Source of the DNA: a virus | IMG/VR virus record: IMGVR_UViG_3300025849_003104 | Location: 1-42,278 of that record | DNA length: 42,278 nucleotides | Direction: 5' to 3' (one strand) | Part shown: positions 2,068-38,128 of the stretch, piece by piece | Numbering within the stretch: position 1 is the first letter of the stretch | Layout: each line of letters opens with the position of its first letter | Notes under the pieces: generated by a model | What the model was told of the DNA's origin: nothing | Databases searched by the model: none | Seen by the model: only the letters and a program-made list of their open reading frames with translations | Position numbers and translations under genes: made by a program

Positions 2068-2883
2068 TTATTCCAAAATTGGAGATAAATGATATTTTAA
2101 ACTATCTGCAATAATTTGATGACCGTGTTCTGAATAATGGTAATCTTTTATCTCTGGCCATTGGTTTGATATCAAAATATTTTGTTTGCCTGGCATCTTA
2201 TATGGGTCTGAACTGATAGGTAGTTTATCATTATATATTTTAAAATCAGATAATGATTTGAATGTATTAGAATCAAAATCTATTGTAAGTAATTTCTCTG
2301 GATACTTTTGTTCTATATAACTTGCATATTCAAGTTCTTCACATAAAAATCTGACTGGTATTTCTTTATTATATGAAGATGATGGAATAGTCATTTCATT
2401 TTCAGTTGAATCATATTTGTTATATCCCTTCGGTCTTGTACACAAATCTACAATCTTTTCAATTTGAAATTCTCTAATCATAAACATTGCACCCATTTCA
2501 TCTACATTATATTTGTTCTGATAATATTTTACTAAACTAGGATTATCAATGTCTCTACTCCAATAAGTAAATTGTACTACTACAAGTTCAATACTTTCAA
2601 ATAACATTTGATGATTAATATTTTCAAGAATATTAATTATATTACGATTTGAACCACCATTACCATATCTTATACAATATGGTTTATTAAAGTGTTTAGA
2701 AATTATAGCAGGAAAATGATGTTTTCTCCTATGAACATCATCATTATATGAAATTATATTTTCGTGAAAAGTAAATGGAGGAAGTTTTTTATTAATATCA
2801 TCAAATGACATACCTTTTTCTAACCATCTTGAGTAATATAATCCTTGTCCCCAAGTAAAGGAATCTCCTAAAAATAATATCAT
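2068..2883 (-). CDS. SGNH/GDSL hydrolase-like protein
   Basis: A 271-residue protein with SGNH-family hallmarks: a block I nucleophile motif at the N-terminus (FLGDSFTWGQG, Ser at about residue 8), a GGSN motif near residue 96, and a C-terminal His block (DYHYSEHGHQIIADS). Members of this fold hydrolyse or transfer acyl groups, often O-acetyl on glycans. There is no signal peptide, so it would act in the cytoplasm on sugars or glycoproteins. It is separate from the SGNH array at 30858-34346 and not closely similar to it. Its stop is one base from the next start. The substrate cannot be read from sequence. Confidence 0.75.
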   Translation of the reverse strand: MILFLGDSFTWGQGLYYSRWLEKGMSFDDINKKLPPFTFHENIISYNDDVHRRKHHFPAIISKHFNKPYCIRYGNGGSNRNIINILENINHQMLFESIELVVVQFTYWSRDIDNPSLVKYYQNKYNVDEMGAMFMIREFQIEKIVDLCTRPKGYNKYDSTENEMTIPSSSYNKEIPVRFLCEELEYASYIEQKYPEKLLTIDFDSNTFKSLSDFKIYNDKLPISSDPYKMPGKQNILISNQWPEIKDYHYSEHGHQIIADSLKYHLSPILE

Positions 2884-2884
2884 A

Positions 2885-5788: not shown

Positions 5789-5828
5789 ATAACTGTATAG
5801 ATTTATTTAAACGATATACACATATATA

Positions 5829-8287: not shown

Positions 8288-8295
8288 ACTAATAA

Positions 8296-10167: not shown

Positions 10168-10182
10168 TCATTTCTCCTCTCT

Positions 10183-11000: not shown

Positions 11001-11008
11001 ATTTGTTT

Positions 11009-11200: not shown

Positions 11201-11221
11201 AATCTCTCCTTTTTATATAAA

Positions 11222-11542
11222 TTATTGTTTTTTACTATAAGCTTGTGTTCCAAAGAACGCCGCTACTATTGCTGCAACTGAAACAAAATAGGTTGCTGCC
11301 ATATCACCTAATATTTTAGATGCCTGGTCCAATCCTATTACATCTGCAAGTACTACTGCGAATGGATAAAGTAACATACCAAATAAAGCGAACCATGCCA
11401 TCTTTCTTTGAGCATCTCTCATTGCATCTTGGTCATCGAGTTCTTTTCTCTTAAACTCAAGATACATTGCTTCTTCTGCTTTTGAAACTTTTCCATCCCC
11501 ATTTGTATCAGCAGGATGTATTTGTTTTTTTACTTCTTCCAT
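11222..11542 (-). CDS. EF-hand protein with two membrane helices
   Basis: A 106-residue protein. Residues about 8-28 form a canonical EF-hand loop (HPADTNGDGKVSKAEEAMYL) with Asp, Asn, Asp, Lys, Ser, Glu at the expected calcium positions. A charged helix follows, then two hydrophobic segments (about 48-68 and 84-102). The architecture, a calcium sensor joined to a small two-helix membrane anchor, suggests calcium control of a membrane process. I recall similar proteins in CsgG-bearing marine phages (unchecked). Possible holin-like function; not determinable from sequence. Confidence 0.75.
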   Translation of the reverse strand: MEEVKKQIHPADTNGDGKVSKAEEAMYLEFKRKELDDQDAMRDAQRKMAWFALFGMLLYPFAVVLADVIGLDQASKILGDMAATYFVSVAAIVAAFFGTQAYSKKQ

Positions 11543-11543
11543 A

Positions 11544-11834
11544 TTACCAATCTATTTCCTCTTCTTTTTCTTTTTTCTTTACTTTAGGTTTAATATATAC
11601 TTTTTTTACAACTGTATCTTTCTTTTGTTCTGGTATGATAACATTAATAGTAGGTCCTTCAACATTTACATTTTGTTCTTGAACTACTTCTACTGCTGAT
11701 TCACTATCTTCAATACCAATGAACGATTTTACCTCATCCATAAACAAACCCCCAAGGCCGGTGAGGATTACTCCTACACCAGCTATGATTTGGTTTTTTA
11801 GTTGTCCGAAAAATCCTTGTTTTTCTTTACTCAT
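11544..11834 (-). CDS. Small membrane protein with charged C-terminal tail
   Basis: A 96-residue protein with an N-terminal membrane segment (IIAGVGVILTGLGGLFM, about residues 13-30), an acidic middle, a beta-like stretch (NVEGPTINVIIPEQ) and a very basic then acidic tail (YIKPKVKKKEKEEEIDW). A GGAGA Shine-Dalgarno eight bases before the ATG supports the start. It lies two bases upstream of the EF-hand gene in the transcript. It might serve as a periplasm-spanning link or a holin-like protein; neither is shown by a motif. Confidence 0.7.
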   Translation of the reverse strand: MSKEKQGFFGQLKNQIIAGVGVILTGLGGLFMDEVKSFIGIEDSESAVEVVQEQNVNVEGPTINVIIPEQKKDTVVKKVYIKPKVKKKEKEEEIDW

Positions 11835-11837
11835 AAG

Positions 11838-12338
11838 TTAGTCTCCATCTGTTGTTATTGGTGTCTGGTCAGGTGCACATCCTACCCCATCTACATTATT
11901 AATATCTGCAATTGGTGTATCTGGACATTGGTCTAATCCATTCATAACTCCATCATAGTCATAGTCAGCAACAAATACTAACATTGCTATACCTTCAGAA
12001 ACTTGTGCTACTCTATCTCTTAGAGTTGCAACTTGTTCTGCAGATGCCCAATTTTGTGCATCTTCCAAGATACCTTCTAACCTTAATTTAATTTCCGCCA
12101 TTTTTGCTACGGCTTCCTCCATGGCAGCATTCTGTTCTTCAACAGTTACTTCCATTTGTTCTACTTGCAATTGCATTGTTGCCACATCGCTTATCATTCC
12201 ATCAACATCTACTAATAGTAGTGAAGCTTCTAACTCTGCTAATGATGCTGTTAGAGATTCCAACCCATCTTCCATAGAAGGATTAGTACAACTTGTAATA
12301 AATGTTAGAATTAATAATAGTGATAACATCTTTTTCAT
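11838..12338 (-). CDS. Coiled-coil lipoprotein with TSP3-type calcium repeat
   Basis: A 166-residue lipoprotein: signal with lipobox (LTFITSC, Cys near residue 17), a long heptad-rich coiled coil (about residues 25-125, LTASLAELEASLLLVDVDG onward), then a thrombospondin type 3-like calcium repeat (DYDYDGVMNGLDQCPDTP ... NNVDGVGC, about 126-158) with two Cys placed as in TSP3 units. TSP3 repeats are common in Bacteroidota OmpA-like proteins, where they link membrane and periplasmic parts. Residues after the lipidated Cys lack the surface-export signal. An AAGGA precedes the ATG. A periplasmic or trimer-forming scaffold of the secretion cassette is plausible. Confidence 0.8.
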   Translation of the reverse strand: MKKMLSLLLILTFITSCTNPSMEDGLESLTASLAELEASLLLVDVDGMISDVATMQLQVEQMEVTVEEQNAAMEEAVAKMAEIKLRLEGILEDAQNWASAEQVATLRDRVAQVSEGIAMLVFVADYDYDGVMNGLDQCPDTPIADINNVDGVGCAPDQTPITTDGD

Positions 12339-12360
12339 AATCTTTTGTCCTTTTTAATTT

Positions 12361-12732
12361 TTACTGATTAACGAAAACCGTTCTTCCTATTACATTGTGA
12401 TTAACATCTGTTAATTCAAGTGTAAAAGAAGATTTATCTAAACTACTGGTATAAACAGAAAGAATATTATCTCCCTCTTGTGCAGTAAGTTTTTCTTGTG
12501 AAATCAAAGAGTTATCAATATCTCTTATCTTCACTCTATATGTTCCATCGTTAGGTAACTTTACATTCATTCGTACCTCACTTGAAACAATTGTATTTTC
12601 TAATTTAATTCCTACCAATTCATCCATTAGAAGTGTATCTGGTACTTCACTAACGAATACAGGTTCCATTATATCATCTTTCATACAAGATGTTAATGTT
12701 AATAATACTAAAAGTGTTAATAGTTTTTTCAT
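12361..12732 (-). CDS. Surface-export-signal lipoprotein paired with cohesin-like protein
   Basis: A 123-residue lipoprotein. The lipobox LTLTSC is followed by MKDDI, an exact match to the X-K-(D/E)2-X lipoprotein export signal that sends lipoproteins to the cell surface in Capnocytophaga and relatives. A small beta domain follows (GTYRVKIRDIDNSLIS near residue 63) that aligns by eye with the 5829-6197 lipoprotein. It begins 4 bases after the stop of the cohesin-like gene. The pair looks like a secreted protein plus its surface anchor or partner (inference). Confidence 0.8.
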   Translation of the reverse strand: MKKLLTLLVLLTLTSCMKDDIMEPVFVSEVPDTLLMDELVGIKLENTIVSSEVRMNVKLPNDGTYRVKIRDIDNSLISQEKLTAQEGDNILSVYTSSLDKSSFTLELTDVNHNVIGRTVFVNQ

Positions 12733-12736
12733 ATCT

Positions 12737-14425
12737 TTATTCCATGTTTAATTTTATTTGTGTTCCATCTGCCTTAACACCTTCGTTAACCTTGAATGAG
12801 ATTAAACCTGATGTATTACTCAACTCAACCAATGGTGTGAATATTAGCTGATATGGAGTACCTGTTTTTACAGTTTTTTCAAACTGTTGGTCAAATGAAC
12901 CTATGTTTATTTTTCCTTCTTCTTCTTTGTGGTTAGCGAAATTAGTCATTTCGTTACCAGTATCAAATACTACGTTCTTTAATTCTAATCTTGTATCATC
13001 ATATACAATGTTAAATTGTGTTCCAATCATACCAGTTACTTCTGAATTTATTGAAAAGATTACCTCACCATCTACTATTTGAGATACCAAATCAACATTT
13101 TGTTGGATTGGATTGTATCTTGCACTTGATGCAAGAGGTGCAGAATTACTAATATTCATTGAACTAATTTGGAAATCACTTGATGCAGCTGGTTGATATG
13201 AGTGTGAGAAGTTAACATCACCTATAAGAACATGAGCAAACTCAAATGATTTGTTAGAGTCAGTTGGTTTGAAAGTTGCATCTAAGTTAGCTAAATAACT
13301 TCCATTTGAATCTACTGTACCAAATATTGATTTAGTACCACCACTCTGTACTGCCCCATTTTTCTTAGAAATGTAGTTAGAGTTTCCACTTGTTACACCC
13401 TGTAAGTGAGCAAGTATTTCATATGAATCTGAAAAATTTATCACCCCATCAAATGGTGAATCATGTATTACGTTTGCCAAGAATGTTTGAATATGGTAAT
13501 CAAACGTTGTTGATGAACCATTTGGTGAAGAACCTGCTCCGATTGCTTCAGCAAATACCAATGCTAAATCAGATACAGTTACTACGTTATCCATATAATC
13601 TTTAGAACCATCTACAAAGTTCCAAACAAAGTATTCCGTATCATTTTCTAAACCGCTTATAGTTGCTTCACCTGATGCATCATAGTTACCTGTTGCAACA
13701 ACTGATGCTCCTTGATTTACTTGATTACCCTCACCGATATCTGATTTAAGGTAAACGTTGTAAAGATAATCTGTACCATCTATTAGTGAATTATCTATTG
13801 CTTTACTGAATATTTTAAGTGTTACACTTCCTGCATCACCACCTGTGATACCAGTTAAACTTAAACCAGTTCCATTATCTACCTTACCTTCTACTGCTAT
13901 TTCAGTTCCATCATCCTTTTTAAGATAACCCCAGTTCATATTTAATAGGTTAGAATAATCTGAATAACCTGTACTTGCTTTATCTTTAATAATAAAGTTA
14001 TACTCCATCCAACCATCATTATTACCAAATGCAGTTACATCTTGAATAGTGATTCTTTCTACTGAAAAATCTGAGTTTGAACCATAGACAGTACTACCTG
14101 CTACATAATCTGCATACTCACCATCTATATCTTGAGTTGCAGTGTTATTACCCCACTTATACCCATTCCATGAGTTGTAAGCTTTTTGAGCCGTATTTGA
14201 GGATATAACCCAATTTCTCGAATCTAACGATAATAGTTTGTTGTTGTACTGAAAATCAAACTGAGTAAGTTTTGCAGTTCCAGCCGTACCTGAATACACT
14301 ATTTCAAGTTTAAGTGTATCACCAACTTTGGAAACTGTGTTTCCTTTGTTGATTTTAATTGTTTCTTGACCATACGAGAAGAATGCACCAAGAACAAATA
14401 ATAATGTTAATAATTGTTTTTTCAT
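12737..14425 (-). CDS. Secreted protein with two cohesin-like segments and a dockerin-like segment
   Basis: A 562-residue secreted protein (signal ends FFSYGQ). Residues about 22-190 resemble a cohesin-type beta sandwich (VGDTLKLEIVYSG ... FDFQYNNKLLSLDS). Residues about 312-345 contain a dockerin-like stretch (DSPFDGVINFSDSYEILAHL). Residues about 438-562 are a second cohesin-like domain (GTQFNIVYDDTRLELKNVVF) closely paralogous to the C-terminus of the 6194-8287 protein. It starts with a 4-base ATGA overlap on the preceding gene. Cohesin-dockerin pairs bind each other in a calcium-dependent way in cellulosomes; here both are on one chain, so self-assembly is conceivable. Domain calls are by eye. 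Confidence 0.75.
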   Translation of the reverse strand: MKKQLLTLLFVLGAFFSYGQETIKINKGNTVSKVGDTLKLEIVYSGTAGTAKLTQFDFQYNNKLLSLDSRNWVISSNTAQKAYNSWNGYKWGNNTATQDIDGEYADYVAGSTVYGSNSDFSVERITIQDVTAFGNNDGWMEYNFIIKDKASTGYSDYSNLLNMNWGYLKKDDGTEIAVEGKVDNGTGLSLTGITGGDAGSVTLKIFSKAIDNSLIDGTDYLYNVYLKSDIGEGNQVNQGASVVATGNYDASGEATISGLENDTEYFVWNFVDGSKDYMDNVVTVSDLALVFAEAIGAGSSPNGSSTTFDYHIQTFLANVIHDSPFDGVINFSDSYEILAHLQGVTSGNSNYISKKNGAVQSGGTKSIFGTVDSNGSYLANLDATFKPTDSNKSFEFAHVLIGDVNFSHSYQPAASSDFQISSMNISNSAPLASSARYNPIQQNVDLVSQIVDGEVIFSINSEVTGMIGTQFNIVYDDTRLELKNVVFDTGNEMTNFANHKEEEGKINIGSFDQQFEKTVKTGTPYQLIFTPLVELSNTSGLISFKVNEGVKADGTQIKLNME

Positions 14426-14922
14426 TTTAGTAAGTCCTTAATAATTGCTTCTAATACTTTCTTTAACGAGTTAGAAGCCGTTTGTTGATTAAATGTTCCA
14501 TCTGATGCAACCACTAAAGTAGAAGTAGAGATTTCTTTACTACTTCCTTTTTGAGTAGTTCTTTTCTTTACTTTCCCTTTAATTTCTAACTCACCTATTG
14601 CTATAATCTGAGTTAGTGATACTTTATTATGGTAAATACCAATTGATTTACCTATATTTTTGACATCAAAAAATACCAACCTTATGTTGATTTTTGTGTC
14701 TGAGTTTTCCGATAAGTCGTAATCTAAATCTAAAAGAAGTTCTTCTAAGATATTTCGAACTCCATAGGCCATAGAGGGATTGCCCGCGAAAGGTCCAACT
14801 CTAATTTCGTTGGTTATCTTGCCGATTGAAATATAGTCATCTTGTTCTAGGTTTGAAGAGGATGAGGATTGTAACAACATCAACGCTAAACCTAATAAGA
14901 TAATCTTTGCAAAAGTTTTCAA
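14422..14922 (-). CDS. Exported CsgG-cassette protein, first gene of the secretion operon
   Basis: About 166 residues from a TTG start at 14922. An upstream ATG at 14949 exists, but the TTG has a perfect AGGAG six bases before it and gives a proper signal peptide (LKTFAKIILLGLALMLLQ), whereas the ATG adds nine polar residues. The mature part has NEIRVGPFAGNPSMAYGVRN and NILEELLLDLDYDLS, then strands and a C-terminal helix, like small periplasmic lipoproteins of outer-membrane complexes but with no lipobox. I recall homologues in marine phages with CsgG (unchecked). It leads the operon that ends at 5829. Function unknown; a channel assembly factor is possible. Confidence 0.7.
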   Translation of the reverse strand: MKTFAKIILLGLALMLLQSSSSSNLEQDDYISIGKITNEIRVGPFAGNPSMAYGVRNILEELLLDLDYDLSENSDTKINIRLVFFDVKNIGKSIGIYHNKVSLTQIIAIGELEIKGKVKKRTTQKGSSKEISTSTLVVASDGTFNQQTASNSLKKVLEAIIKDLLK

Positions 14923-14928
14923 AGTAAT

Positions 14929-14933
14929 CTCCT
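14929..14933 (-). promoter_or_regulatory. Strong Shine-Dalgarno deciding a TTG start
   Basis: AGGAG on the minus strand, six bases before TTG 14922. The same layout, AGGAG plus six bases plus TTG, is found for the gene at 8296-10167. Flavobacterial genes rarely rely on Shine-Dalgarno sites, so these are notable. Confidence 0.7.
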
Positions 14934-14956
14934 TTTTTTGGATTACCATAACTTAT

Positions 14957-16725: not shown

Positions 16726-17322
16726 TTAAAATTTGTAATTAAATATTTTAAAATCATCTTCAAATCTTTTATAAATGATTTCTTGAGTAGTATCATCATA
16801 ATATTCTCTGTAATGTTTATGATTTGATTTTCTTCTATGAGGTAATTTTATATGAGGAGAAATTCCTATTTCTTGTTGAAGTTCTTTCCAATCCGAGGTT
16901 AACTGTTCAAAGAATCCTATAAAATCAACTCCAAATTTTACCTCTTTAGGTCTTTTGGTATATTCTTGTTTGTTAACATCCCATTCCCAATCTTGTAATG
17001 ATAACCACGCAACTTGATTACCCGTTCCTTTTATATCGTAACCAAGTTCATCTAAATTTTTAACCCAGTCCTTAAAGGATATTTTAGAAATAATTGGGTC
17101 TTTCATATTTTGCACTCTATGATGGTATTGAGATACGATTTTATCATATGGATTTCTTATAAAAGAAAATTTATAAAACTGAGGTAATTGGATTATTTCA
17201 GAAAAATCTTTTAAAGTCATATGAGTAGATTGTTCATGAACCAACCCTAGTGCAGTTTCAATACTACTACCGGCAGTTTTGTTAATGTGAATAAATGCTA
17301 TTCTATAATATAAGTTTATCAT
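16726..17322 (-). CDS. Sulfotransferase-family protein (first of three adjacent)
   Basis: A 198-residue sulfotransferase-like protein. The 5'-phosphosulfate (PAPS) loop is FIHINKTAGSSIETAL (about residues 9-24) and the 3'-phosphate site is FSFIRNPYDKIVSQYHHRV (about 53-71), the layout of the Sulfotransfer_2 family that sulfates glycans. It is the most distinct of the three. There is no membrane anchor, so it must be cytoplasmic and depends on host PAPS. It overlaps the upstream sulfotransferase by 20 bases. Confidence 0.8.
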   Translation of the reverse strand: MINLYYRIAFIHINKTAGSSIETALGLVHEQSTHMTLKDFSEIIQLPQFYKFSFIRNPYDKIVSQYHHRVQNMKDPIISKISFKDWVKNLDELGYDIKGTGNQVAWLSLQDWEWDVNKQEYTKRPKEVKFGVDFIGFFEQLTSDWKELQQEIGISPHIKLPHRRKSNHKHYREYYDDTTQEIIYKRFEDDFKIFNYKF

Positions 17323-17974
17323 TAAATTCTTTTAAAACTTGTTTATATAACAAAATATCTTTTTTATTTCTTTCTTCAAATAAAGATAAAACTTCAGAAT
17401 CAAATTTATAATTATTATTTGTGTTTGGGTTTTTATTTTCAATTGATTTTGGTTTAAAATCAAATTTCAGTAATTTACCAAACGCTTTTAAAGAATCTGA
17501 AAAGTGTTCTTTTATAAATATAAAATCATATTTTTCTTTGATATCATCTAATGTTTCAATTCCCATATAATTAGACATATAGTTATCTGTCATATCACCC
17601 CAATGTGGTGTCTCCCATCCATCTGATATTGTTCCCTTGCATTGACCAAGATACCATTCATTAAAATCTAAACCTTGTCTAAAAAACTTATGACCATAAC
17701 AGTAGTGAGAATATAATCTATCTAATGGATTTCGAACTGAAGATATTCTTATTACTGGTAAGTTTTTATCAATTTCTTTATAAAAGTGTTTTTGATACTC
17801 ATCATTATTTAGAATATGATTTGTATTAATATTAAAAGGACCATATAGAAAGAAATTATCATAATTAGCATCATTTACTTTTAATCCTCTTGAGATAGCA
17901 TATTCAAATAAATGTTGTCTTATACTTTGAGTGGCACATTTTGCTGTTTTTATGAATAAAATATTAGTTTTCAT
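17303..17974 (-). CDS. Sulfotransferase-family protein (second of three)
   Basis: A 223-residue protein with a PAPS-type P-loop ILFIKTAKCATQSIRQHL at the N-terminus and a 3'-phosphate motif ISSVRNPLDRLYSHYCYGH (about residues 77-95). Similarity to the 17964-18638 protein (KCATTTL and SVRHPLKRFLSHY) suggests tandem duplication and divergence. It overlaps the neighbours by 11 and 20 bases, which implies co-translation. It likely sulfates a glycan made by the surrounding glycosyltransferases; the acceptor is unknown. Confidence 0.8.
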   Translation of the reverse strand: MKTNILFIKTAKCATQSIRQHLFEYAISRGLKVNDANYDNFFLYGPFNINTNHILNNDEYQKHFYKEIDKNLPVIRISSVRNPLDRLYSHYCYGHKFFRQGLDFNEWYLGQCKGTISDGWETPHWGDMTDNYMSNYMGIETLDDIKEKYDFIFIKEHFSDSLKAFGKLLKFDFKPKSIENKNPNTNNNYKFDSEVLSLFEERNKKDILLYKQVLKEFNDKLIL

Positions 17975-18638
17975 AACCGTAATTCTTAATTATAAAATCA
18001 AATAATTCATAATCAGATATATTACGAGATTCAAATAATTTCAAAAATTTATCAGTTATTTTTAAATTGTATTTAGTACTATTTTCTTTTAGGTCTACAT
18101 CTTCAATAGTATAACCACTAATTTTTTTAAACTTTTTATAAGTTTCTTGAATATTTTCTGTTAATGTAAAAAAATCATATTTTTCTAATACAAGATTACC
18201 ATCCCATTTAGTGTCATCACCAACACCAAGATATTTTGTTAGGTAATTATCCATAGTTCTAATAAAACTTTCAAAATGAGTATTGTCATAATTTTCTAAG
18301 TAAAAAGAAGAAACATCTTCACCATATTGTTTATATCTACCTTCTCTTAAATGATGTTTATAGTGTGATAAAAATCGTTTGAGAGGATGTCTTACAGAAC
18401 CTATTACTAATCTATCTTGAGATTTAACAACATCCCAATTTATATCACCTGAATAAAGATGTCCAAGATTCATATATTTTACTGGTGCCATAATGTTGTG
18501 TTCACCTTCAAGTGTTGTTTTTATATTACTGTATTTACAAAACTTTTCAAACTGAATTGCAAGAGTTGTGGTTGCACACTTAGGTGTACGAACCCATACA
18601 ATACCATTTGGAATTTTATTTACCATGTTTACCTTCAT
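17964..18638 (-). CDS. Sulfotransferase-family protein (third of three)
   Basis: A 224-residue protein with the PAPS loop GIVWVRTPKCATTTLAIQF (about residues 12-30) and the 3'-phosphate site LVIGSVRHPLKRFLSHYKHH (about 76-95). The frame has Met at 18638 and 18626; both overlap the previous gene's stop (by 23 or 11 bases), so the second is also possible. Closest relative in the window is the 17303-17974 protein. A cytoplasmic sulfotransferase acting on a phage- or host-encoded glycan is the natural reading. Confidence 0.8.
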   Translation of the reverse strand: MKVNMVNKIPNGIVWVRTPKCATTTLAIQFEKFCKYSNIKTTLEGEHNIMAPVKYMNLGHLYSGDINWDVVKSQDRLVIGSVRHPLKRFLSHYKHHLREGRYKQYGEDVSSFYLENYDNTHFESFIRTMDNYLTKYLGVGDDTKWDGNLVLEKYDFFTLTENIQETYKKFKKISGYTIEDVDLKENSTKYNLKITDKFLKLFESRNISDYELFDFIIKNYGYEN

Positions 18639-27360: not shown

Positions 27361-28179
27361 TTATGAACTTATTTTTGAGTTACATTCAGGATATATAACA
27401 TTCTCAAATAGCTTATATGCTAATGATTTAGTTATATGTATTTCATCTTGTTGGAGAACTTTTTCTTTATCTTCTTTTGTTAATAAATCATCAGTCCATT
27501 CGGTTACTGTATTGTATCCATATGGTTTAACAAATTCGATTCTCGTTAGAATATCATTTATTTGTTCTTTAATATTAGATAAATCTCTATGATTTGTTTC
27601 ATCAGTATCAAATACTTGCCATTCATTATCATTTCCACTAAAAGACCAAAACATATGTACAAATGGAATATTTTTACTTTTTAAATAAGTTTGTAACATA
27701 TCAATTTTTTGTAATAAATCTAATAAATTAAGATAATGATTCCAAAAATATTTTATATATGTTTCATAAAACTTATTAAGTTCTTTTTTAGCGAATTCAT
27801 TGTTTCTATATAGTAAAGCACCATTTAGATTCATTGAATGAAATGAACTAGTGTGTGAATCTAATGTAGTTGGTAACCATAATCTATTTGTGTAAGTAGT
27901 TTGTATATAAAAAACAGTATTATCTAAATTGATTCTATCACTTGAAAGTGGTTGAGGATGCGATGCATTTCCTCCAAAGGTAGTACCATGAAATTTGGAA
28001 TCTAATTGATATTTATTTGAAAATCGATAGACATCTTCAATAATTTTTTCATTTGAATTTCCACCAATGATACCTTGCATTTCTGAATTAAATACTTTCT
28101 TGCATAAATTTGGATTTAGTTCACCTACTGCATGGGAAATTGTTGCCATGTGAGAACATCCAAAAGGAACTATTTTCAT
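27361..28179 (-). CDS. SGNH-like protein
   Basis: A 272-residue protein with an SGNH-type plan: block I IVPFGCSHMATIS with the Ser near residue 9, a GGNSNEKI block near residue 39, a mid region typical of these phage proteins (LKSKNIPFVHMFW), and a C-terminal D-x-x-H in QQDEIHITKSLAYKLF. It is distant from the tandem array at 30858-33759, closer in style to the 33759-34346 protein (both have GCSH). The start overlaps the gp62-like gene by 4 bases. Predicted acyl-ester hydrolase or transferase on a glycan. Confidence 0.65.
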   Translation of the reverse strand: MKIVPFGCSHMATISHAVGELNPNLCKKVFNSEMQGIIGGNSNEKIIEDVYRFSNKYQLDSKFHGTTFGGNASHPQPLSSDRINLDNTVFYIQTTYTNRLWLPTTLDSHTSSFHSMNLNGALLYRNNEFAKKELNKFYETYIKYFWNHYLNLLDLLQKIDMLQTYLKSKNIPFVHMFWSFSGNDNEWQVFDTDETNHRDLSNIKEQINDILTRIEFVKPYGYNTVTEWTDDLLTKEDKEKVLQQDEIHITKSLAYKLFENVIYPECNSKISS

Positions 28180-29691: not shown

Positions 29692-29927
29692 GTTAGTGAT
29701 GTTATTAATGCGTATATGTAACCTGTTATCCCTACTAAGTTTAATAAAGTTAGGTTATATTGTTTTGTTACTTGTGTTTGAACTGTTATAAGAATTAATC
29801 CAAGAATCATTCCTATCTTTCCATAAATAGAATCAATAATTGGAGGAGAAACCATCATTAATGCAGTTCCGAAATATATTACACCATATTGATATAATAA
29901 CGCTTTTAAATCTTTTTTCTTTTTCAT
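29688..29927 (-). CDS. Small membrane protein (two to three helices)
   Basis: A 79-residue hydrophobic protein with a basic N-terminus (MKKKKDLKALLYQYG) and segments about 14-34, 36-52 and 58-76. It overlaps its neighbours by 4 bases each. A small, translation-coupled membrane protein could be a holin, antiholin or envelope factor, but no family is recognised. Confidence 0.65.
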   Translation of the reverse strand: MKKKKDLKALLYQYGVIYFGTALMMVSPPIIDSIYGKIGMILGLILITVQTQVTKQYNLTLLNLVGITGYIYALITSLT

Positions 29928-30874
29928 AATATCTCTTTTTTATATATAGTATTGTGATTAAAAATATCTGATACAATTGATAAGTTATTGTATATTTTAT
30001 CTAAATTATTTTTGTAATATTCTATTACCCATTCCATACTCTTTTCGTTTACTTCGTTTACACACTTTGAAAATTTATCAACTCTATGAATTGACTCATT
30101 ATCATATTCATCAGCATCATCAAATCCAAACTCTATATTTGGAATCCAAAATCCTAATTTTTCTAAATCCTTTATTAAATGTTTTTGACCAAATATTAGA
30201 GGTATATTACCAGTCAAAAATGCTAGAATAGATTTTTCAGTAAATGAATTAAATGTTCTATCTCCATGATTTGTTTCACATATAAATGAAAAATAAGTAG
30301 ATTTATATTCGTTAATCAATTCAGACCATTCAACTGATTTATCTCCAATTTCAGTAAATACATTATTGTATCTAAAAATATCAATTTTACTTGTATCTAT
30401 TTTTGATACTAACAAATCTCTAACTAAACTTTTTCTATTTACTGAGAATATTGATTTTTTTGATTTATACTCTAAAAAATTAGGTTTATTTGTATAAAGA
30501 GATTTATCAAAAATGTTAGTCCTATTTTTCATTTGAGTTGGATTATTATTTACTGAAATCGTACTGTATTTCCAATGTAACATATGTGTAAAAGGATGTG
30601 CACCAAATATAACTTCTTTAGATGCGGTACTTTGTACTATTCTTATATCTCTGTTTAATTTCTTTATAAACTCTACTAAATTAGTATAAAGATTCTTTTC
30701 ATCTATTACTTCATGTTGAAAAATAAGTAAAAAAATCTTTTCATTTCTTGATTTTAATTCAATATTATTAAATAACTTTTCAATATTTAAATCTTCATAT
30801 TGATTTATAAAGATATATTTTTTTCTGTAATAACAATTTTGTTCTTCATTTACAATATCAGTTATTAATTTCAT
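29924..30874 (-). CDS. GT10-like (fucosyltransferase-type) glycosyltransferase
   Basis: A 316-residue GT-B-like protein. The C-terminal donor-site segment STYFSFICETNHGDRTF then SFTEKSILAFLTGNIPLIFG (about residues 193-230) corresponds to the GT10 fucosyltransferase/exostosin pattern (Glu, TEK, P.I..G). The N-terminal half (FLLIFQHEVIDEKNLYTNLV) is less conserved. No signal or membrane segment. It is the promoter-distal end of the SGNH block, overlapping the first SGNH gene by 17 bases. Fucose or a related sugar is plausible but not proven. Confidence 0.7.
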   Translation of the reverse strand: MKLITDIVNEEQNCYYRKKYIFINQYEDLNIEKLFNNIELKSRNEKIFLLIFQHEVIDEKNLYTNLVEFIKKLNRDIRIVQSTASKEVIFGAHPFTHMLHWKYSTISVNNNPTQMKNRTNIFDKSLYTNKPNFLEYKSKKSIFSVNRKSLVRDLLVSKIDTSKIDIFRYNNVFTEIGDKSVEWSELINEYKSTYFSFICETNHGDRTFNSFTEKSILAFLTGNIPLIFGQKHLIKDLEKLGFWIPNIEFGFDDADEYDNESIHRVDKFSKCVNEVNEKSMEWVIEYYKNNLDKIYNNLSIVSDIFNHNTIYKKEIL

Positions 30875-31829
30875 TCGAATTATTTATAAATCTTATTATT
30901 GAATCTGCTATAATTTTGTGTCCATATTTAGATGGGTGTAAATTATCACACCAAGGATATAGAGTATTTAAATAAAAATCAGTATCCCATTCGTTTGAAA
31001 GAGATGTTTCCTTCTCGTTTTTATAAATAGGTATAGTTCTATTTTTTATCTTTTTAATTATATCAGAATCATCCATTTTATCAAGTAATTCTGCATCCAT
31101 TTCATTCCAATGAGATATAAAATAATAAGGTATATTTAAATTATCTAATTGCTCAGTATATTTTTTATAGTATAGTTTTGTAATACCTTCAATCCAACCA
31201 TCCCAATTTTTGAAAAAATCTTGTAGTTTTTGTGCATCTTTTAAAGATATAAATTTTATACCTCCATTTATTTGAGAGGTCATATGACCAAACAAATATT
31301 TTTCTTCTGTAAATGTTTTTTTACCATCAGTAGAATGTTCCCATTTTAAGAATAATTCATTTAAAAAAGATATTATAGTTTTACCGTCATATCTATAATC
31401 TAAAATATCTATATCGAATGTGTTTTTAAAAAAATCAAATAAATATGTTGATTCATCTCGTGTGGGTGAGGTTAGGTTTATGATTGCTACTGAAAATTCA
31501 TCCTTACCAAATTTTTCTATACATTTATTTATAAATCCTATTGCGGTACTTTGACTACCACCATTCCAAAATTTTCTAAATCCAAGAGTATCATAATAAT
31601 TTGATACCAACGCTGGATAAGATAATTCATATCTTAATTTTCCTGCAGGGAGGATGTTTTCTGAAAAATCACTCCACTTATGCCATCTATATCCTAAATC
31701 ATCACCTGTTTTATTTAGGTTTTTCATTTGCATACATTTCTTGTAAACAATTTCACGATATCTATCATCATGAAGTTCAAGTCCCTCTCCAAAAGTAAAT
31801 GAATCACCTGTAAATATTATTGGTTTCAT
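30858..31829 (-). CDS. SGNH-like protein, tandem copy A
   Basis: A 323-residue SGNH-type protein. Block I MKPIIFTGDSFTFGEGLELH has the nucleophile Ser; a GGSQS block is near residue 92; and the C-terminal block CDNLHPSKYGHKIIADS keeps the catalytic Asp (three residues before His) and His. It therefore has a complete triad. It shares its N-terminus with copies B and C and a 49-base identical DNA stretch with copy B (31782-31830). Predicted to hydrolyse or transfer an acyl group on a surface glycan. Confidence 0.8.
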   Translation of the reverse strand: MKPIIFTGDSFTFGEGLELHDDRYREIVYKKCMQMKNLNKTGDDLGYRWHKWSDFSENILPAGKLRYELSYPALVSNYYDTLGFRKFWNGGSQSTAIGFINKCIEKFGKDEFSVAIINLTSPTRDESTYLFDFFKNTFDIDILDYRYDGKTIISFLNELFLKWEHSTDGKKTFTEEKYLFGHMTSQINGGIKFISLKDAQKLQDFFKNWDGWIEGITKLYYKKYTEQLDNLNIPYYFISHWNEMDAELLDKMDDSDIIKKIKNRTIPIYKNEKETSLSNEWDTDFYLNTLYPWCDNLHPSKYGHKIIADSIIRFINNSNEINN

Positions 31830-32776
31830 GAAAATTCTTGTTTTAAAAAATTAGTTACTGAATCTGATATAATCTCATGTAATAATTTTGAAGGATGGTT
31901 GTTTTGTGTCCATTTGAATTCATCAGATATCCACAAGTTATCTTTTTTAGGTAATTCACATAAACTATTATATGATGTATTTACTAACTTAATAGGTATA
32001 ATTTTATTTTTTATATAATCTACAACATCTTGTTCTGATATTGTTTTAAAAATTTCATTATCTAAATCATTCCAATGACCTATTATATAAACAGGTATAT
32101 TTATTTTCTTAATTATATTAATCATTTTACGATATGTTCTTAAATGCATATCGTACTCAAATTTACTATGTAAACCGTATATTTGCTGTAATTTTATTGC
32201 ATTATCTATTGATATTGTATTTTTAAAAAATTCATTAAATTCGTTAGGATGTTGTTCGAATGGTGCATTTTTAAATTTATAATCCCAATTAAACCAATAA
32301 TACATAAAATTAGATAATGATGAATGATAATTACAATTAATTCCATGTTCGTTTCGTAAATATTTTTTACCCGATTGAAAGTCATCTCTATTCATACCAG
32401 TTAAATTTAATACTATACAAGAAAAGGTTTCACTAGAATTTGATTCTAATATTTCATTTATAAAATCAAATGCTTCAATATTATCACCTCCATTTACTCC
32501 TTTAGAAAAAAATAAAGTATTTAGATTTTCTGAAACTAGTGTTGGAAATTTGTATTTATGTCTGATTATAGATGATGTACCTCCATATGACATATGTTCA
32601 AACCTTGGCCAATTGTAGTAATAATGGTTTGGAACGTTTGAATGTATCTCATTTCCATCAGAATCTACCTCTGGTATCTTGGTTAATGATTTTATATAAC
32701 TTCTATATCTTTCATCATACAACTCCAATCCCTCTCCAAAAGTAAATGAATCACCTGTAAATATTATTGGTTTCAT
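31826..32776 (-). CDS. SGNH-like protein, tandem copy B, catalytic Asp replaced
   Basis: A 316-residue paralogue of copy A. It begins with 18 identical residues (MKPIIFTGDSFTFGEGLE), has NGGDNIEAFDF as the second block and IIKKINIPVYIIGHW in the core. In the C-terminal block the sequence is WTQNNHPSKLLHEIISDS: the His is kept but the position three residues before it is Gln, not Asp. Either the triad is completed by another residue or the copy is catalytically altered. ATGA overlaps on both sides. Confidence 0.75.
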   Translation of the reverse strand: MKPIIFTGDSFTFGEGLELYDERYRSYIKSLTKIPEVDSDGNEIHSNVPNHYYYNWPRFEHMSYGGTSSIIRHKYKFPTLVSENLNTLFFSKGVNGGDNIEAFDFINEILESNSSETFSCIVLNLTGMNRDDFQSGKKYLRNEHGINCNYHSSLSNFMYYWFNWDYKFKNAPFEQHPNEFNEFFKNTISIDNAIKLQQIYGLHSKFEYDMHLRTYRKMINIIKKINIPVYIIGHWNDLDNEIFKTISEQDVVDYIKNKIIPIKLVNTSYNSLCELPKKDNLWISDEFKWTQNNHPSKLLHEIISDSVTNFLKQEFS

Positions 32777-33759
32777 GTGTATATTTGTTTTAAGTAAGAT
32801 GAAACTGATTTTCCTATATATTCGTGCATTTTTTTAGTTGGATGCATATTTGATGTCCATGGAAATTCTTTATGTATCCATATATTAGAATATGGTAAAA
32901 AATTTTCATATACAATATTATCGTAAAATTTATTTTCTACTTTAATTGGTATTATATTATCTATGATATTTTCTTTTATCTTAGAATCGTTCGATAGTTT
33001 TTTTAATATTATGTTATCATACTTTTCCCAATGTCCTATAAAGTAAAATGGTAGATTTGTTTTTTGAATTATTTCAATGATATTATAGTAATTTAAACGT
33101 TGCATTTCTAGTTCAAAGTTATCATGAGTTTTATATTCATCTTGAAGTATCTGTGCACTATTAATATCTATTGAATTAGAACCATTGAATATTCTACTAT
33201 ACTCAGACTCATTTTCTTTAAAAGTTTTATTACCATGTTCATGATTCCAAGTAAACCAATTTATCACAAACTTATTTAAACTAGAATTTTCATTTATGTG
33301 ATTATTATTTATTGTAAAATTTACATTTAAATTTTTATGTAACCATTTCTTAGAGTATTCCATATCATCCCTCCACATGCAAGTCATGTTCATAACGACA
33401 CATGAGAAATCTGAGGGTGAGTTTGTTTTTAATGTTCTATTTACAAAATTTAATGCACTATAAGTATTATATCCATTTTCTCCTGGTGAGAAATATGGAA
33501 CATCTAATGTTTCAGATACTATGGTTGAAAACCTTAATTTATTTCTAGTATTTGCTGCAGTACCTCCCCATGCCATTGGTTCAAATCTTGCCCAATTGTA
33601 ATAATAGTAATCTGCATATTTTGAATATACTTTATTTCCATCGGAATCTACCTCTGGTATCTTAGTTAATGATTTTACATGATTTTTATATGCATCATCA
33701 TATAACTCTAAACCTTCACCAAATGTAAATGAATCTCCTGTAAATATTATTGGTTTCAT
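32773..33759 (-). CDS. SGNH-like protein, tandem copy C, catalytic Asp replaced
   Basis: A 328-residue paralogue, closest to copy B (both have KIPEVDSDGN near residue 32). Block I is the same as in A and B; second block ENGYNTYSALNF; core TNLPFYFIGHW. The C-terminal block is WTSNMHPTKKMHEYIGKS with Ser at the position of the catalytic Asp. It joins neighbours by ATGA or 1-base overlaps. Like copy B it may have changed its catalytic chemistry or become a binding protein. Confidence 0.75.
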   Translation of the reverse strand: MKPIIFTGDSFTFGEGLELYDDAYKNHVKSLTKIPEVDSDGNKVYSKYADYYYYNWARFEPMAWGGTAANTRNKLRFSTIVSETLDVPYFSPGENGYNTYSALNFVNRTLKTNSPSDFSCVVMNMTCMWRDDMEYSKKWLHKNLNVNFTINNNHINENSSLNKFVINWFTWNHEHGNKTFKENESEYSRIFNGSNSIDINSAQILQDEYKTHDNFELEMQRLNYYNIIEIIQKTNLPFYFIGHWEKYDNIILKKLSNDSKIKENIIDNIIPIKVENKFYDNIVYENFLPYSNIWIHKEFPWTSNMHPTKKMHEYIGKSVSSYLKQIYT

Positions 33760-34346
33760 TATAGTAACTCTTTTGTGATTATGTTATTATAAATATCCAT
33801 AGCAAAATTATAGTTTCCTTCAACTCCCATATGCCAACCATCTATTCCTCGTGGGTATTTTTTTAAATATTTTTTAGTAAAATCAATATCAACTATAACT
33901 GAATCTGTTATATCAAAATAGTAATCAAATTCAGATGAAACTAGTAAATTGTATAATTTTATATTTTTGTTTTTGAGAAATAAATTAACTTGGTTTACGA
34001 TAGTTTGATTATCAAACTTTTCATTGTAAGTAGTGTGAAACTCTTTGAACCAAGTTTCACTTCGACCAGTTCCCCATGAGTTTATTAAACCAGTGTGAGT
34101 ATTTTTATTTTTAAAAAAATGATATCTATCGGAGTATGTCCATAGAATTATTACAGTATCATCTTTTTGAAATTCAAATGTATAGATGTTGTGTTGAATA
34201 GTTCTATTACTTCCACCTGCCTCTGCTAAATTAATAAGTTCTTTATCAAGTTTTTTTGATAATATAGATGGCCATGAATCTTTAGATGGAGTTTCTAATC
34301 CCTCACAAATAGTATGACTACATCCTAGTGTAATCAATCTACTCAT
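33759..34346 (-). CDS. SGNH-like protein, fourth in the array
   Basis: A 195-residue, more compact SGNH protein: block I RLITLGCSHTICEGLETP, block III AGGSNRTIQHN (about residue 43) and the C-terminal D-x-x-H in RGIDGWHMGVEGN. A full triad is present, unlike copies B and C. It is not closely related to A-C and more like the 27361-28179 and 2068-2883 proteins. It overlaps both neighbours by 1 and 4 bases. Confidence 0.75.
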   Translation of the reverse strand: MSRLITLGCSHTICEGLETPSKDSWPSILSKKLDKELINLAEAGGSNRTIQHNIYTFEFQKDDTVIILWTYSDRYHFFKNKNTHTGLINSWGTGRSETWFKEFHTTYNEKFDNQTIVNQVNLFLKNKNIKLYNLLVSSEFDYYFDITDSVIVDIDFTKKYLKKYPRGIDGWHMGVEGNYNFAMDIYNNIITKELL

Positions 34347-35065
34347 AACATATGTTTTGTAATTTTAGATTTTATTTTTGACCAAAAATTATCTACTCTA
34401 TCATACTGATGATATATTCCATATTCTTTATTCATATCCCACTCAGTACATGATAAATTAATTACAGTATCATCTTTTATTATATTGTAATTGTATTTTG
34501 TATATGCAAGAATATTCAATGCCATTTGGTCTACTGTACTTTTCTTTACTTTTAATTCTGATTTGAAGGTGTAATTAAACACATCTTCAAACAGATTTAT
34601 AATATTTTTATTCTTCCCTAACACTACACCTGCACATAAATGATGTTTGTTTTTAATTGTATCGTATTTAGTAGGATACATTTTCATCATTTCTTTTGTA
34701 GCCCATTCATTATTTTCTAGGGAGTAATCTCCGTCAATTCCTATGAATAAGTCATAAGCTGGTAATAATATTGGATTTCTGTGAAAGTAAACATCACGAG
34801 AATCTGTAACTAATACTTGTTCGTATTGATTATAATTTTTTAGTATATTGGATATATCTTCAAATCTTTTAGTTACAACTTGTATATTATTAAGGTCTCT
34901 TTCATAAATCTTCCAACCATTTTGAATTAAAAAATTTTTAGTAGAAGAGTCACAATCATAAACAACCATAACTTTTTCATCAGTATAACCTGATTGATTT
35001 AATGATTCTACGAAAGTATATAGTTGAGTTTTTGTGTAATTGTATGATGAAGAAATTATAACCAT
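34343..35065 (-). CDS. Glycosyltransferase-like protein, paralogue of 15964-16722
   Basis: A 240-residue GT-A-like protein: N-terminal VIISSSYNYTKTQLYTFVES, DXD-like VLVTDSRDVYFHRNP (about residue 84), C-terminal HQYDRVD. It matches the 15964-16722 protein across its length. It starts right behind the terminator at 35069-35095: the T-run occupies the place of a ribosome binding site and no Shine-Dalgarno is present, so expression may depend on read-through or on another start. Confidence 0.7.
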   Translation of the reverse strand: MVIISSSYNYTKTQLYTFVESLNQSGYTDEKVMVVYDCDSSTKNFLIQNGWKIYERDLNNIQVVTKRFEDISNILKNYNQYEQVLVTDSRDVYFHRNPILLPAYDLFIGIDGDYSLENNEWATKEMMKMYPTKYDTIKNKHHLCAGVVLGKNKNIINLFEDVFNYTFKSELKVKKSTVDQMALNILAYTKYNYNIIKDDTVINLSCTEWDMNKEYGIYHQYDRVDNFWSKIKSKITKHML

Positions 35066-35108: not shown

Positions 35109-37817
35109 TTAGAATCTGTATTTTAGAGAAGCGTTCCATGTACGTCCGAATCCGAACCATACTGAGTTTCTCGTATCAACACCATTCCAAGTTGTTGAAG
35201 TTGAAGTTGCGTGAATGTTAGAATTTGATTCTGCAATATAAACAGTATCAAATAAGTTATTAACATTAGCTCTAAAGGAAATTCCTTTGCCAATATTAAC
35301 AGTAACACCACCATCTACTAAACCATACGAAGGAAGTTTTAATGCTCCATCGTTATCAGGTGAAGTAAACGCCGAATCAGTAATAGAGTAATCAGCATAT
35401 AATCCATCTATGAATCTATATCCTAAATCTACATTGAATCTACCTAATCTGTAATCAGCTTCAAAGTAAGAAGTAAATTGTGCTGCATCACCAACTTTAG
35501 CATCTTTTGTGTAAAGAGTACCTGTACCAATTGATTGTTGTTGGTCATCGAATAATTCAGCTGAGAAATCTTTTGTATATCTCCAATCACCGATTGATAA
35601 CATACCTTTAAGAGTTAATTGGTTTGTTGGTCTATATGTACCTTCAAACTCAATACCATTGTGTACTACATCAATGTTTCTAAATTGTGCTGAACCATCA
35701 ACACCTTGTTGGTTAGATAAACTTCTTGTAACGAATCTGTTACCCCATGTTGTAGAGTAAAGGTTTACGTTAGCATTAAATTTAGCTGATGTGAATCCAT
35801 ATCCTAATTCTACTGAACGAATTTCTTCATTTTGTAAATCATCATTAACTACGTTTGCGTAGTTAGGGAATACAGTTCCAAACTGAGGTTGTCTTGAAAT
35901 GAAACCTGCGTTGAAGAATACATTTGAGTTATCATTAAAGTTGTAGTTTGCACCACCTTTAAGATATCCACCACCTACATTAACTTTTTCAGATAATGGT
36001 AGTGCTGGTTGGTCAAATAAATCTTCTCTTTGGAATGATTGATTAGATAAACCTGCTTGTAATACTGCAGTTAGTTTATAATCATCATTGTATTCAATTA
36101 AACCATTAACACCTTGCCATCCAACATATCCAATGTTGTAATAATCAATCTTAGGACCTCTAATTCCAGTATCTTGGAATGGGTTTGCTTCGATTGTAGT
36201 GTTAATAATTTGTCCTGCTGAGTTCTTGTTACCAGTTGAGTAGTAACCATCAAATCCCATTAGGTTATTTACAGTTCTATAATGATATCCTTTATAGTTT
36301 CTTAAATCGAATCCGATTGAGTACTTAAAGTTACCACTATCGATTTCTAAGTTAGAGATTGCTCCAACCCAGTCATGAGAGTTCATAGATGCTCTTCTAA
36401 TAAGACCAGCTCTATTTACACCATCATCTCTGAATCCATTAGATGCGATAAGTTGTCCTTCATATCCACTAATACCACCACTATAAGCATCGGTATTAGA
36501 AGTTTGGAATGCAACTACTGCATCGTAATCGATAAATCCATCTGCAGTTCTTGAACCTCTACCATTTTCTAAGTAGTGTTCAGTTAAATCTTTTCTGAAA
36601 GGTAAGATATCAGTTTCCGAGTTGTAGTAATTTCTACCTCTTGGACCTGTTCCACCACCTCTACCTGCCGAACCATATAAGGAGGTAGCAAGTTTAACGT
36701 TATCAGAAATATCCCAATCCCAGTTAAATGTTGCTAATGGTTTGTTGTAGAAGTTTCTTCTCATTGAGAATTCTTCACCTTGGTAAGTACCACCATTTGA
36801 GTTCCATCTTCTATCGATACCTTCAGTACCGAAGTTTTGGTAATCTCTAATAGATACCCATACATCTCTTTGGTGATGCCATTGTCCAGCACCTAAGAAA
36901 GAAAAGTTTACATCGTGTTTAGAACCTTCAGGTGAATATCCTAATGCAAAGAAGTAAGTGTAACCCTCACCACTTGTATTATAGATATATCCATCACCTT
37001 CCCATCTTGTTAATAGGAAAGATGAAGCCCATCCATTCTCACTTTTACCTGTGTTGTAAGTAACAGTAGATTTTAAGTAACCATCGTTACCTGCCATCTG
37101 AGTTACAGAACCACCTTCTTCTTTTTCAGCAGCTCTTGTAAAGATTGATACAGTTCCACCTACTGATGGTACTGCTAATCTTGAAGCTCCTAAACCTCTC
37201 TGAATTTGGATTCCACTTGCAACATCTGTTAAACCTTGCCAGTTAGACCAATAAACCCATCCATTTTCCATATCGTTAACTGGTTGCCCATTGATAAGGA
37301 ATGATGTATTTCTTTGGTCGAATCCTCTTAAAGAGATTCTTGAATCACCATATCCACCACCTTGTTTGGTAGCGTAGACACCAGGTGTCTTGTTCATGAT
37401 TTCTGGGAACTCTAAGTTACCCACCTTTAGTGCAATTTCACTTGCCCTAATCGTTGATACTGCTACTGGTGTTTCTCTCACCTTCGCAACATCAATTACT
37501 CCTGATGTAACAACTACTTCTTGAAGTGTATTCAAGCTTTGTAGAAGTTCAACAGAGATTCCATTGATTGCCTCAACTTCTGCTGTTTCATATCCAAGAT
37601 ACGAAATAACAAGAGTACTTCCTGCAACCGCAGATTCTAAACTAAATTTACCATCAAAATCAGTTACAACTCCGGTCAAGGTTTTGAAGTCTTTGACCCA
37701 AACAGTTGCTCCTGGTAATGGTGATTTAGTATCAGAATCTAGTACTACCCCACTAACTTGTGCGAAAGTAATAAATGATGATAACATCATCAATCCAACT
37801 AATAATAGTTTTTTCAT
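35109..37817 (-). CDS. TonB-dependent receptor with carboxypeptidase-D-like N-domain
   Basis: A full-length outer-membrane TonB-dependent receptor, about 902 residues from ATG 37817 (MKKLLLVGLMMLSSFITFAQ, a good signal peptide); an in-frame ATG at 37850 would add eleven residues (MFNLNKNGNLI) that spoil it. In order: signal peptide, carboxypeptidase-D-like regulatory domain (VSGVVLDSDTKSPLPGATVW), a TonB-box-like LQEVVVT, plug domain (NKTPGVYATKQGGGYGDSRI to VPSVGGTVSIFT), and a 22-strand-type barrel ending in aromatic KYRF. This is the usual Bacteroidota layout. The open frame is intact. Substrate unknown. Being on the same strand between phage replication genes and the SGNH block, it appears to be phage cargo of host origin. 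Confidence 0.9.
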   Translation of the reverse strand: MKKLLLVGLMMLSSFITFAQVSGVVLDSDTKSPLPGATVWVKDFKTLTGVVTDFDGKFSLESAVAGSTLVISYLGYETAEVEAINGISVELLQSLNTLQEVVVTSGVIDVAKVRETPVAVSTIRASEIALKVGNLEFPEIMNKTPGVYATKQGGGYGDSRISLRGFDQRNTSFLINGQPVNDMENGWVYWSNWQGLTDVASGIQIQRGLGASRLAVPSVGGTVSIFTRAAEKEEGGSVTQMAGNDGYLKSTVTYNTGKSENGWASSFLLTRWEGDGYIYNTSGEGYTYFFALGYSPEGSKHDVNFSFLGAGQWHHQRDVWVSIRDYQNFGTEGIDRRWNSNGGTYQGEEFSMRRNFYNKPLATFNWDWDISDNVKLATSLYGSAGRGGGTGPRGRNYYNSETDILPFRKDLTEHYLENGRGSRTADGFIDYDAVVAFQTSNTDAYSGGISGYEGQLIASNGFRDDGVNRAGLIRRASMNSHDWVGAISNLEIDSGNFKYSIGFDLRNYKGYHYRTVNNLMGFDGYYSTGNKNSAGQIINTTIEANPFQDTGIRGPKIDYYNIGYVGWQGVNGLIEYNDDYKLTAVLQAGLSNQSFQREDLFDQPALPLSEKVNVGGGYLKGGANYNFNDNSNVFFNAGFISRQPQFGTVFPNYANVVNDDLQNEEIRSVELGYGFTSAKFNANVNLYSTTWGNRFVTRSLSNQQGVDGSAQFRNIDVVHNGIEFEGTYRPTNQLTLKGMLSIGDWRYTKDFSAELFDDQQQSIGTGTLYTKDAKVGDAAQFTSYFEADYRLGRFNVDLGYRFIDGLYADYSITDSAFTSPDNDGALKLPSYGLVDGGVTVNIGKGISFRANVNNLFDTVYIAESNSNIHATSTSTTWNGVDTRNSVWFGFGRTWNASLKYRF

Positions 37818-38128
37818 AATTAAATTTCCATTTTTATTTAAATTAAACATAACATATTCATACTACAAATCCTCCTTAATGAAATTATAGTAAATTTTAA
37901 TATTTTCGTGTATTGTATTTGTGCTTGTAAAGTTCCCCAGATTAGGGGTGTAAGTGCTATCACAACTTTCGTTGTTTGTAATGTCTTGTAGATTGTTCAT
38001 ATAAACCTGATTCATCTGTTAATAACTATTGTATATATCTAAAAAAGTGATTAAACTTCTTTAACTTTATGTTAACTTTTTCTTTATAATTGCCTAGTTT
38101 AGTAATGACTTTATTTCTGAGTATATCA
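37818..38128. promoter_or_regulatory. Leader region between gp44 and the TonB-dependent receptor
   Basis: This 311-base gap holds: a weakly supported 37-codon frame with TTG start (38139-38026); a 50-codon frame (38015-37863, listed separately); an AAGGAGGA Shine-Dalgarno (37870-37877) that points to an ATG at 37861 followed by only seven codons and a stop, not to the receptor start; and an inverted repeat CCCCTAATCTGGGG (37935-37948). No -33/-7 promoter of the P1 type was found. The layout suggests a translated leader before the receptor gene. Confidence 0.4.
37863..38015 (-). CDS. Possible 50-residue peptide gene upstream of the receptor
   Basis: ATG 38015 to TAG 37863 reads MNQVYMNNLQDITNNESCDS, then TYTPNLGNFTSTNTIHENIK and IYYNFIKEDL. 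It is hydrophilic, Asn/Thr-rich, without signal peptide, and unlike anything I recognise. Its final codons contain AAGGAGGA, the Shine-Dalgarno that then faces the mini-frame at 37861. No good ribosome site precedes its own ATG. Could be a real small gene or chance. Confidence 0.4.
   Translation of the reverse strand: MNQVYMNNLQDITNNESCDSTYTPNLGNFTSTNTIHENIKIYYNFIKEDL

Follow-up and report, generated by a model that had tools for sequence, protein, structure and literature searches.

An array of four consecutive, overlapping open reading frames (ORFs) encoding SGNH proteins, here called A, B, C and D, lies on the minus strand of IMG/VR virus record IMGVR_UViG_3300025849_003104, which was analysed over its whole length of 42,278 bases (30% G+C; hereafter the window). 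The position of this array and its SGNH assignment hold as given in an original prediction, which also described A, B and C as recent paralogues and B and C as copies without the catalytic Asp of block V. The present analysis leads to a different picture of these three proteins. A, B and C appear to be old, diverged paralogues that share Asn at the constrained acid position of their family, and they are probably catalytic acyl-esterases or acyltransferases acting in the cytoplasm as part of a phage glycan cassette.

Block V, other motifs and fold

In the canonical D-x-x-H form of block V, the Asp is situated three residues before the catalytic His (His-3), although it is not obligatory in the SGNH superfamily. 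At this position A has Asp, B has Gln and C has Ser, exactly as had been described. Relatives were gathered by profile (alignment) queries, and 66 proteins could be aligned with block V. His-3 is unconstrained among them: 15 kinds of residue occur there in the members with Asp at His-2, and the Asp of A is absent from its orthologues, which have Gly (in L001, a record syntenic with the window) or Glu (in L005, a record that ends within the gene) and retain Asn at His-2. The residue at His-2 is Asp in 42 of the relatives, Asn in 21, Gly in two and Cys in one. By this alignment, the constrained acid position of the family is His-2, and block V reads [Asp/Asn]-x-His. The loss ascribed specifically to B and C was thus read at a position that is free in the family, whereas at His-2 all of A, B and C have Asn. 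In D and in its L001 orthologue (73% identity), Asp is found at His-3 and Gly at His-2.

The 21 Asn-type sequences, single-copy loci included, belong nearly all to one clade. The Asp/Asn state at His-2 changes twice on the first tree, and the presence of an acid there changes four times on a wider tree to which 21 further members from the same records were added. Because these changes are few, Asn at His-2 is, as far as the trees indicate, an old state of the whole clade rather than something that B and C lost recently.

The other blocks, which had been considered intact, are mostly so. The family invariants G8, S10, T12, G14, L17, N95, G96, R130, W244 and H306 (C numbering) are all kept in A, B and C. 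The nucleophilic Ser of block I (G-D-S-x-T) is found in 65 of 65 aligned relatives and within G8-D9-S10 of the three copies, the block II Gly (G96) in 66 of 66, and the block V His in 65 of 66, with L033 as the only loss. On the other hand, the second Gly of block II is replaced by Tyr in C (NGY vs NGG), and block III, whose motif is [Q/N]-x-[T/S]-x3-R, has Asn in A, B and C (N124 in C) where 57 of the 66 relatives have Gln. DSSP analysis of the C model places N124 at a strand end and T126 in a loop. The L033 gene (L033:3998-4903) is a degenerate SGNH copy with an intact ORF, in which the catalytic His has become Phe, the second block II Gly has become Ile and the conserved Arg has become His.

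The AlphaFold2 (AF2) models of A (pLDDT 89.3, pTM 0.89) and C (pLDDT 89.9, pTM 0.89) both have the three-layer α/β/α SGNH fold. VIA-align of the C model gave Z 12.1 to 4rw0 (3.1 Å, 168 residues) and 11.7 to the CE2 esterase 2waa; structural alignment of the A model gave 12.0 to 4rw0 (3.1 Å, 165 residues) and 11.8 to 2waa. Over the CE2 esterases 2waa and 2wao and the thioesterase TesA, Z was about 11–12 for both models. In Foldseek against the PDB the best rows were SGNH enzymes, but none reached an E below 0.001; PDB sequence searches gave no useful match. In the viral library BFVD, the best structural neighbours of C (E to 1.9e-5) are SGNH-like proteins of uncultured Caudovirales, such as A0A6J5LBT9 and A0A6J5TA02; some are labelled SGNH_hydrolase with no function assigned.

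Curated libraries do not catalogue this phage SGNH family, whose block V reads [Asp/Asn]-x-His; its fold is known. A PF13472 search of the window found no match. Among 48 members scanned against curated families, PF00657 was matched by at most three (best E 2.8e-5), and no relevant NCBIfam or PHROG family matched more than one. Scans of viral contigs and reference phages with the single proteins A, C and the product of the SGNH gene at 2068 returned nothing, whereas the alignment queries did recover relatives. No account of the family came up in a literature search.

Age and relatedness of A, B and C

Full-length identity is 31% between A and B, 30% between A and C, and 46% between B and C; outside the shared start it is about 30% for A-B and A-C and about 45% for B-C. 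L001 has one orthologue of A (52% identity) and one of B/C. On the tree, A groups with the former (SH-aLRT 99) and B and C with the latter (98). Since A and B/C each pair with a separate L001 gene, the split between them is, by this topology, older than the divergence of the window phage from L001. A recent duplication of A, B and C is therefore ruled out by the low identities and the tree, and the term recent paralogues does not apply. At this locus the window has three copies, L001 has two and L033 has a single, degenerate one.

The similarity at the gene starts is real and nearly of the extent first reported: A, B and C have 19 leading residues in common rather than 18 (21 for the B-C pair), and A and B share 48 identical bases rather than 49. 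Within the first 19 codons, codon identity at identical residues is near the rest-of-gene baseline for most pairs, and A-B stands out with 15 of 18. The run of 16 identical codons in A and B has a P of 3.5e-5 per pair when calculated from the shared amino acids and the codon usage of the window with independent draws, and of about 0.0025 when the 67% codon identity elsewhere between A and B is taken as the baseline. These comparisons suggest that the shared leading amino acids mostly reflect selection on block I, and that the start of A and B is perhaps a short conversion tract, which would fit their codon identity beyond expectation. A recombining 5' constant region over all copies was also considered and rejected; a clear excess of codon identity is seen in A/B only, the other pairs lying nearer the baseline.

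Proposed activity and its alternatives

From the fold models, the family, the motif register, the age of the copies and the operon layout, an activity, a substrate, a compartment and a purpose may be proposed. The acid at His-2 would have become Asn in the A-C clade long before the duplication. Ser10 would attack an O-acyl ester, probably O-acetyl, and the His would act as base, held in place by one of three groups: the Asn at His-2, a main-chain carbonyl or the block I residue Glu15. The enzymes would then be active through Ser-His-Asn or a dyad. Because Ser10 is only ten residues from the N-terminus, leaving no room for a signal peptide, A, B and C should be cytoplasmic. As they would be co-translated there with glycosyltransferase-like genes, their probable task is the removal or transfer of acyl groups on sugars during assembly of a surface or virion glycan modified by the phage. 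The copy numbers of three, two and one at the locus would be expected of a specificity-determining, fast-evolving cassette. That the three proteins are active enzymes is favoured because the invariants are kept, the SGNH models of A and C are confident and Asp-less SGNH enzymes have precedents.

Asp-less members are recognised in the superfamily, and many CE2 members, like other dyads, dispense with the block V Asp and have their His oriented by a main-chain carbonyl (PMC9487903). The CE2 enzymes (CtCE2 2WAO, BpEst2A 4DEV/3U37, CjCE2A 2WAA) resemble A and C in the SGNH fold, with the Z of about 11–12 given above, but they are cellular enzymes of polysaccharide breakdown with 12–17% sequence identity to the A and C models in structural alignments, and their N-terminal carbohydrate-binding domain is absent from A, B and C, in which Ser10 stands so near the start. 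In CE20 enzymes the triad is Ser-His-(water-Asp/Asn), the acid being located at His-2 (PMC12313940). Like the phage family, CE20 (Fl8CE20_II) has Asp or Asn at this position, Asn being the residue of A, B and C; unlike it, CE20 enzymes hold the water with the help of an ancillary domain that interrupts the SGNH domain, and no sequence match between CE20 and the phage family was found. The O-acetyltransferases AlgX and AlgJ have a DXH rather than DXXH block V and an altered block III (PMC9487903), as the phage family does, but AlgX, AlgJ and DHHW proteins are circularly permuted (H before S), whereas the order in A, B and C is S, G, N/Q, H.

Several points weigh against the proposed activity. 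Block III lacks the canonical GxND, which suggests an unusual oxyanion hole. The substrate and the direction of the reaction, hydrolysis or transfer, are suggested by context. The family of the neighbouring gene at 29924 is a putative glycosyltransferase by motif and neighbourhood, without a curated match; its protein in the window matched no Pfam or PHROG family.

The sequences offer one candidate for a relocated acid, the residue five positions after the nucleophilic Ser in block I (Ser+5; Glu15 in C). In the first set of relatives, all 21 Asn-type members have Glu at Ser+5, and the Asp-type members that align there have Gln (31), Ser (four) or Glu (five). In a set of 85, 48 members have an acid at His-2 only, 26 at Ser+5 only, ten at both and one at neither, the last being L099, which has Glu at His-3. 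Hence 27 members lack an acid at His-2, and all but one of them carry an acid at Ser+5; simple independence predicts about 16 with neither. Kinship inflates these counts: the tree holds three to four independent pairs, all as expected or neutral, and a sign test gave p 0.25, a number of pairs that cannot reach significance. According to the original prediction, a different Asp filling the triad position would overturn the view of B and C as altered proteins; what is found instead is Asn at His-2 and the candidate Glu at Ser+5, with no Asp. A natural acid swap, in which the Glu at Ser+5 replaces the block V Asp of the A-C clade as the carboxylate supporting the His, is a doubtful proposal, and the covariation is a lead, not a finding.

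It is possible, though less probable than not, that A, B and C are O-acyltransferases, a weak or absent acid and an altered oxyanion hole favouring transfer; this is a sub-case of the proposed acyl-esterase or acyltransferase activity and does not exclude it. The original prediction suggested altered transferases for B and C, and such a role may apply equally to A. The predicted cytoplasmic location beside glycosyltransferase-like genes, the altered blocks of known SGNH transferases (AlgX with DXH, PatB1; PMC9487903) and the presence of the salicylyl-acyltransferase SsfX3 (3skv) and a perhydrolytic acyltransferase among the fold matches are all consistent with transfer. However, the same fold matches contain hydrolases whose Z is as high or higher, neither an MBOAT nor an AT3 acyl donor domain was noticed in the window, and sequence does not separate transfer from hydrolysis.

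Less probable still, and on balance unlikely, is that B and C, or all three copies, are pseudoenzymes whose SGNH fold binds an acylated glycan or another protein without catalysis. The missing acid at His-2 in A, B and C and at His-3 in B and C would suit such a role, as would the non-canonical block III and the degenerate copy, with His changed to Phe, at the same locus of the related phage L033. Yet that truly degenerate sister has lost the His, the second block II Gly and the Arg, whereas A, B and C, at 30–46% identity to one another, have kept the Ser, the His and every other family invariant. The Asn state is also found in 21 sequences including single-copy loci, which a disposable duplicate does not explain, and SGNH enzymes without Asp are active (PMC9487903, PMC12313940). 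The suggestion that B and C in particular are inhibitors or binders finds no mark in them beyond those of A; all three keep Ser10, the His and the remaining invariants.

Other phages do have SGNH domains in their tail and receptor-binding proteins (PMC13123978, PMC9569702), and A has a weak PHROG tail-protein match (E 0.0021). A role as deacetylases of the host capsule, carried on the virion or its tail, is nevertheless very improbable here, as A, B and C are stand-alone proteins without fibre or trimerisation parts, match no tail family at a convincing E-value and have their genes in a glycosyltransferase operon, not among tail genes.

The array in its genomic setting

On the minus strand from 35065 to 29924, six ORFs follow one another in the order glycosyltransferase-like, D, C, B, A, glycosyltransferase-like, with overlaps of 1–17 bases (Table 1). 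The first of them has an orthologue with 80% identity at the matching place in L001.

Table 1. Genes and codons of the SGNH array and other SGNH genes of the window
Feature	Coordinates	Strand	Remarks
Glycosyltransferase-like gene	34343..35065	-	First in operon; 4-base overlap with D; PHROG 1579 'glycosyltransferase', E 7e-7
D, short SGNH protein, 195 residues	33759..34346	-	GCSH block I; DGWH block V (D-x-x-H); Glu at Ser+5; A8 profile E 2.6e-7
C, SGNH protein, 328 residues	32773..33759	-	Block V S-N-M-H
B, SGNH protein, 316 residues	31826..32776	-	Block V Q-N-N-H; 46% identity to C; family invariants kept
A, SGNH protein, 323 residues	30858..31829	-	Block V D-N-L-H
Putative glycosyltransferase-like gene	29924..30874	-	E-T...[S/T]EK...G-F motif; 17-base overlap with A
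C, block V codons Asn304-Met305-His306	32842..32850	-	[D/N]-x-H; Ser303 is the position first read as a lost Asp
B, block V codons Asn292-Asn293-His294	31895..31903	-	Alignment of block V
A, block V codons Asp295-Asn296-Leu297-His298	30936..30947	-	Alignment of block V
C, codon Glu15 (Ser+5, block I)	33715..33717	-	Candidate relocated acid; covariation
B, equivalent Glu codon (Ser+5)	32732..32734	-	
A, equivalent Glu codon (Ser+5)	31785..31787	-	
A, start	31782..31829	-	48 bases identical to B start (32729-32776)
Separate D-type SGNH gene	2068..2883	-	Block V D-Y-H; Gln at Ser+5
Possible further SGNH-like protein	27361..28179	-	FGCSH, D-E-I-H; motif resemblance only

The window was said to encode six SGNH proteins. 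Five are supported by profiles (2068, A, B, C and D); the sixth, at 27361, is doubtful, with SGNH-like motifs, no significant A9 profile match and a blastp E of 0.013 against D. This number had been called exceptional for a phage. Among the 38 records, all selected for at least one SGNH gene, the window has the highest SGNH density of those over 20 kb, but the other records have one to five SGNH genes each and directly adjacent SGNH pairs occur in 11 of the 38. The window is thus dense in SGNH genes, but of a common kind.

At 28 of 38 SGNH loci, the fetched stretch also contains a member of the 29924 protein family, whose gene frequently overlaps the SGNH gene. In L006 (8831-10885), a 685-residue ORF, open at the stretch end, carries an SGNH-like domain (D-x-H) followed by a glycosyltransferase-like domain of this family. 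Elsewhere, epimerase, glycosyltransferase or methyltransferase genes are neighbours of SGNH genes; among 122 genes near SGNH genes, 20–21 are sugar-nucleotide epimerases and 12 have a transketolase pyrimidine domain. Small proteins with the latter domain adjoin SGNH genes at L006:4478-4993 and L067:3846-4391, and these neighbours hint at thiamine-dependent branched-sugar chemistry.

The window encodes T4-like replication genes (clamp loader, PHROG 168, E 4e-82; the clamp match is weaker) and a sugar-modification region with a glycosyltransferase, UDP-glucose dehydrogenase, an epimerase, two Sulfotransfer_2 matches and a GT2 glycosyltransferase. Three sulfotransferase-like genes stand in a row at 16726-18638 (minus strand) in this glycan region, two of them with the significant Sulfotransfer_2 matches. 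A block of a PD-(D/E)XK nuclease and two glycosyltransferases is syntenic with Flavobacterium phage immuto (NC_055915; glycosyltransferase identity 42.6%), where the same order, continued by GT2, adjoins a sugar-modification cassette; in the stretch of immuto that was read, no SGNH genes are annotated. This synteny points to a Bacteroidetes myovirus, and the virus is of a marine type. Comparable hypervariable glycosyltransferase islands in pelagimyophages are thought to change the host surface (PMC7029224).

Two further regions were observed. A complete TonB-dependent receptor (carboxypeptidase-like domain, plug and barrel) is encoded at 35109-37850 (minus strand) and partially matches PHROG 5687, whose function is unannotated; because its C-terminal end is found at the matching place in L001 and L033, the receptor belongs to the phage. 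At 1071-14949 (minus strand) lies a long series of signal-peptide- or lipoprotein-like ORFs, unusual in a phage, with a PA14 domain at 6194-8287, a Ser/Asp/Glu-rich repeat protein at 8296-10167 and otherwise matchless products. The series recalls the secreted/curli-like clusters of pelagimyophages, and the ORF at 10183-10899 had no CsgG Pfam match.

These results correct the tempting misreading that two copies are dead and their neighbour alive, and they give a testable rule for the family: a constrained acid position at His-2, where Asn often stands instead, complemented by a Glu of block I. The acid swap, if true, would show a triad acid moving within one fold. The neighbouring sugar epimerases and glycosyltransferase-like genes offer a way into the acyl chemistry of glycans encoded by phages, which is little described in the literature found.

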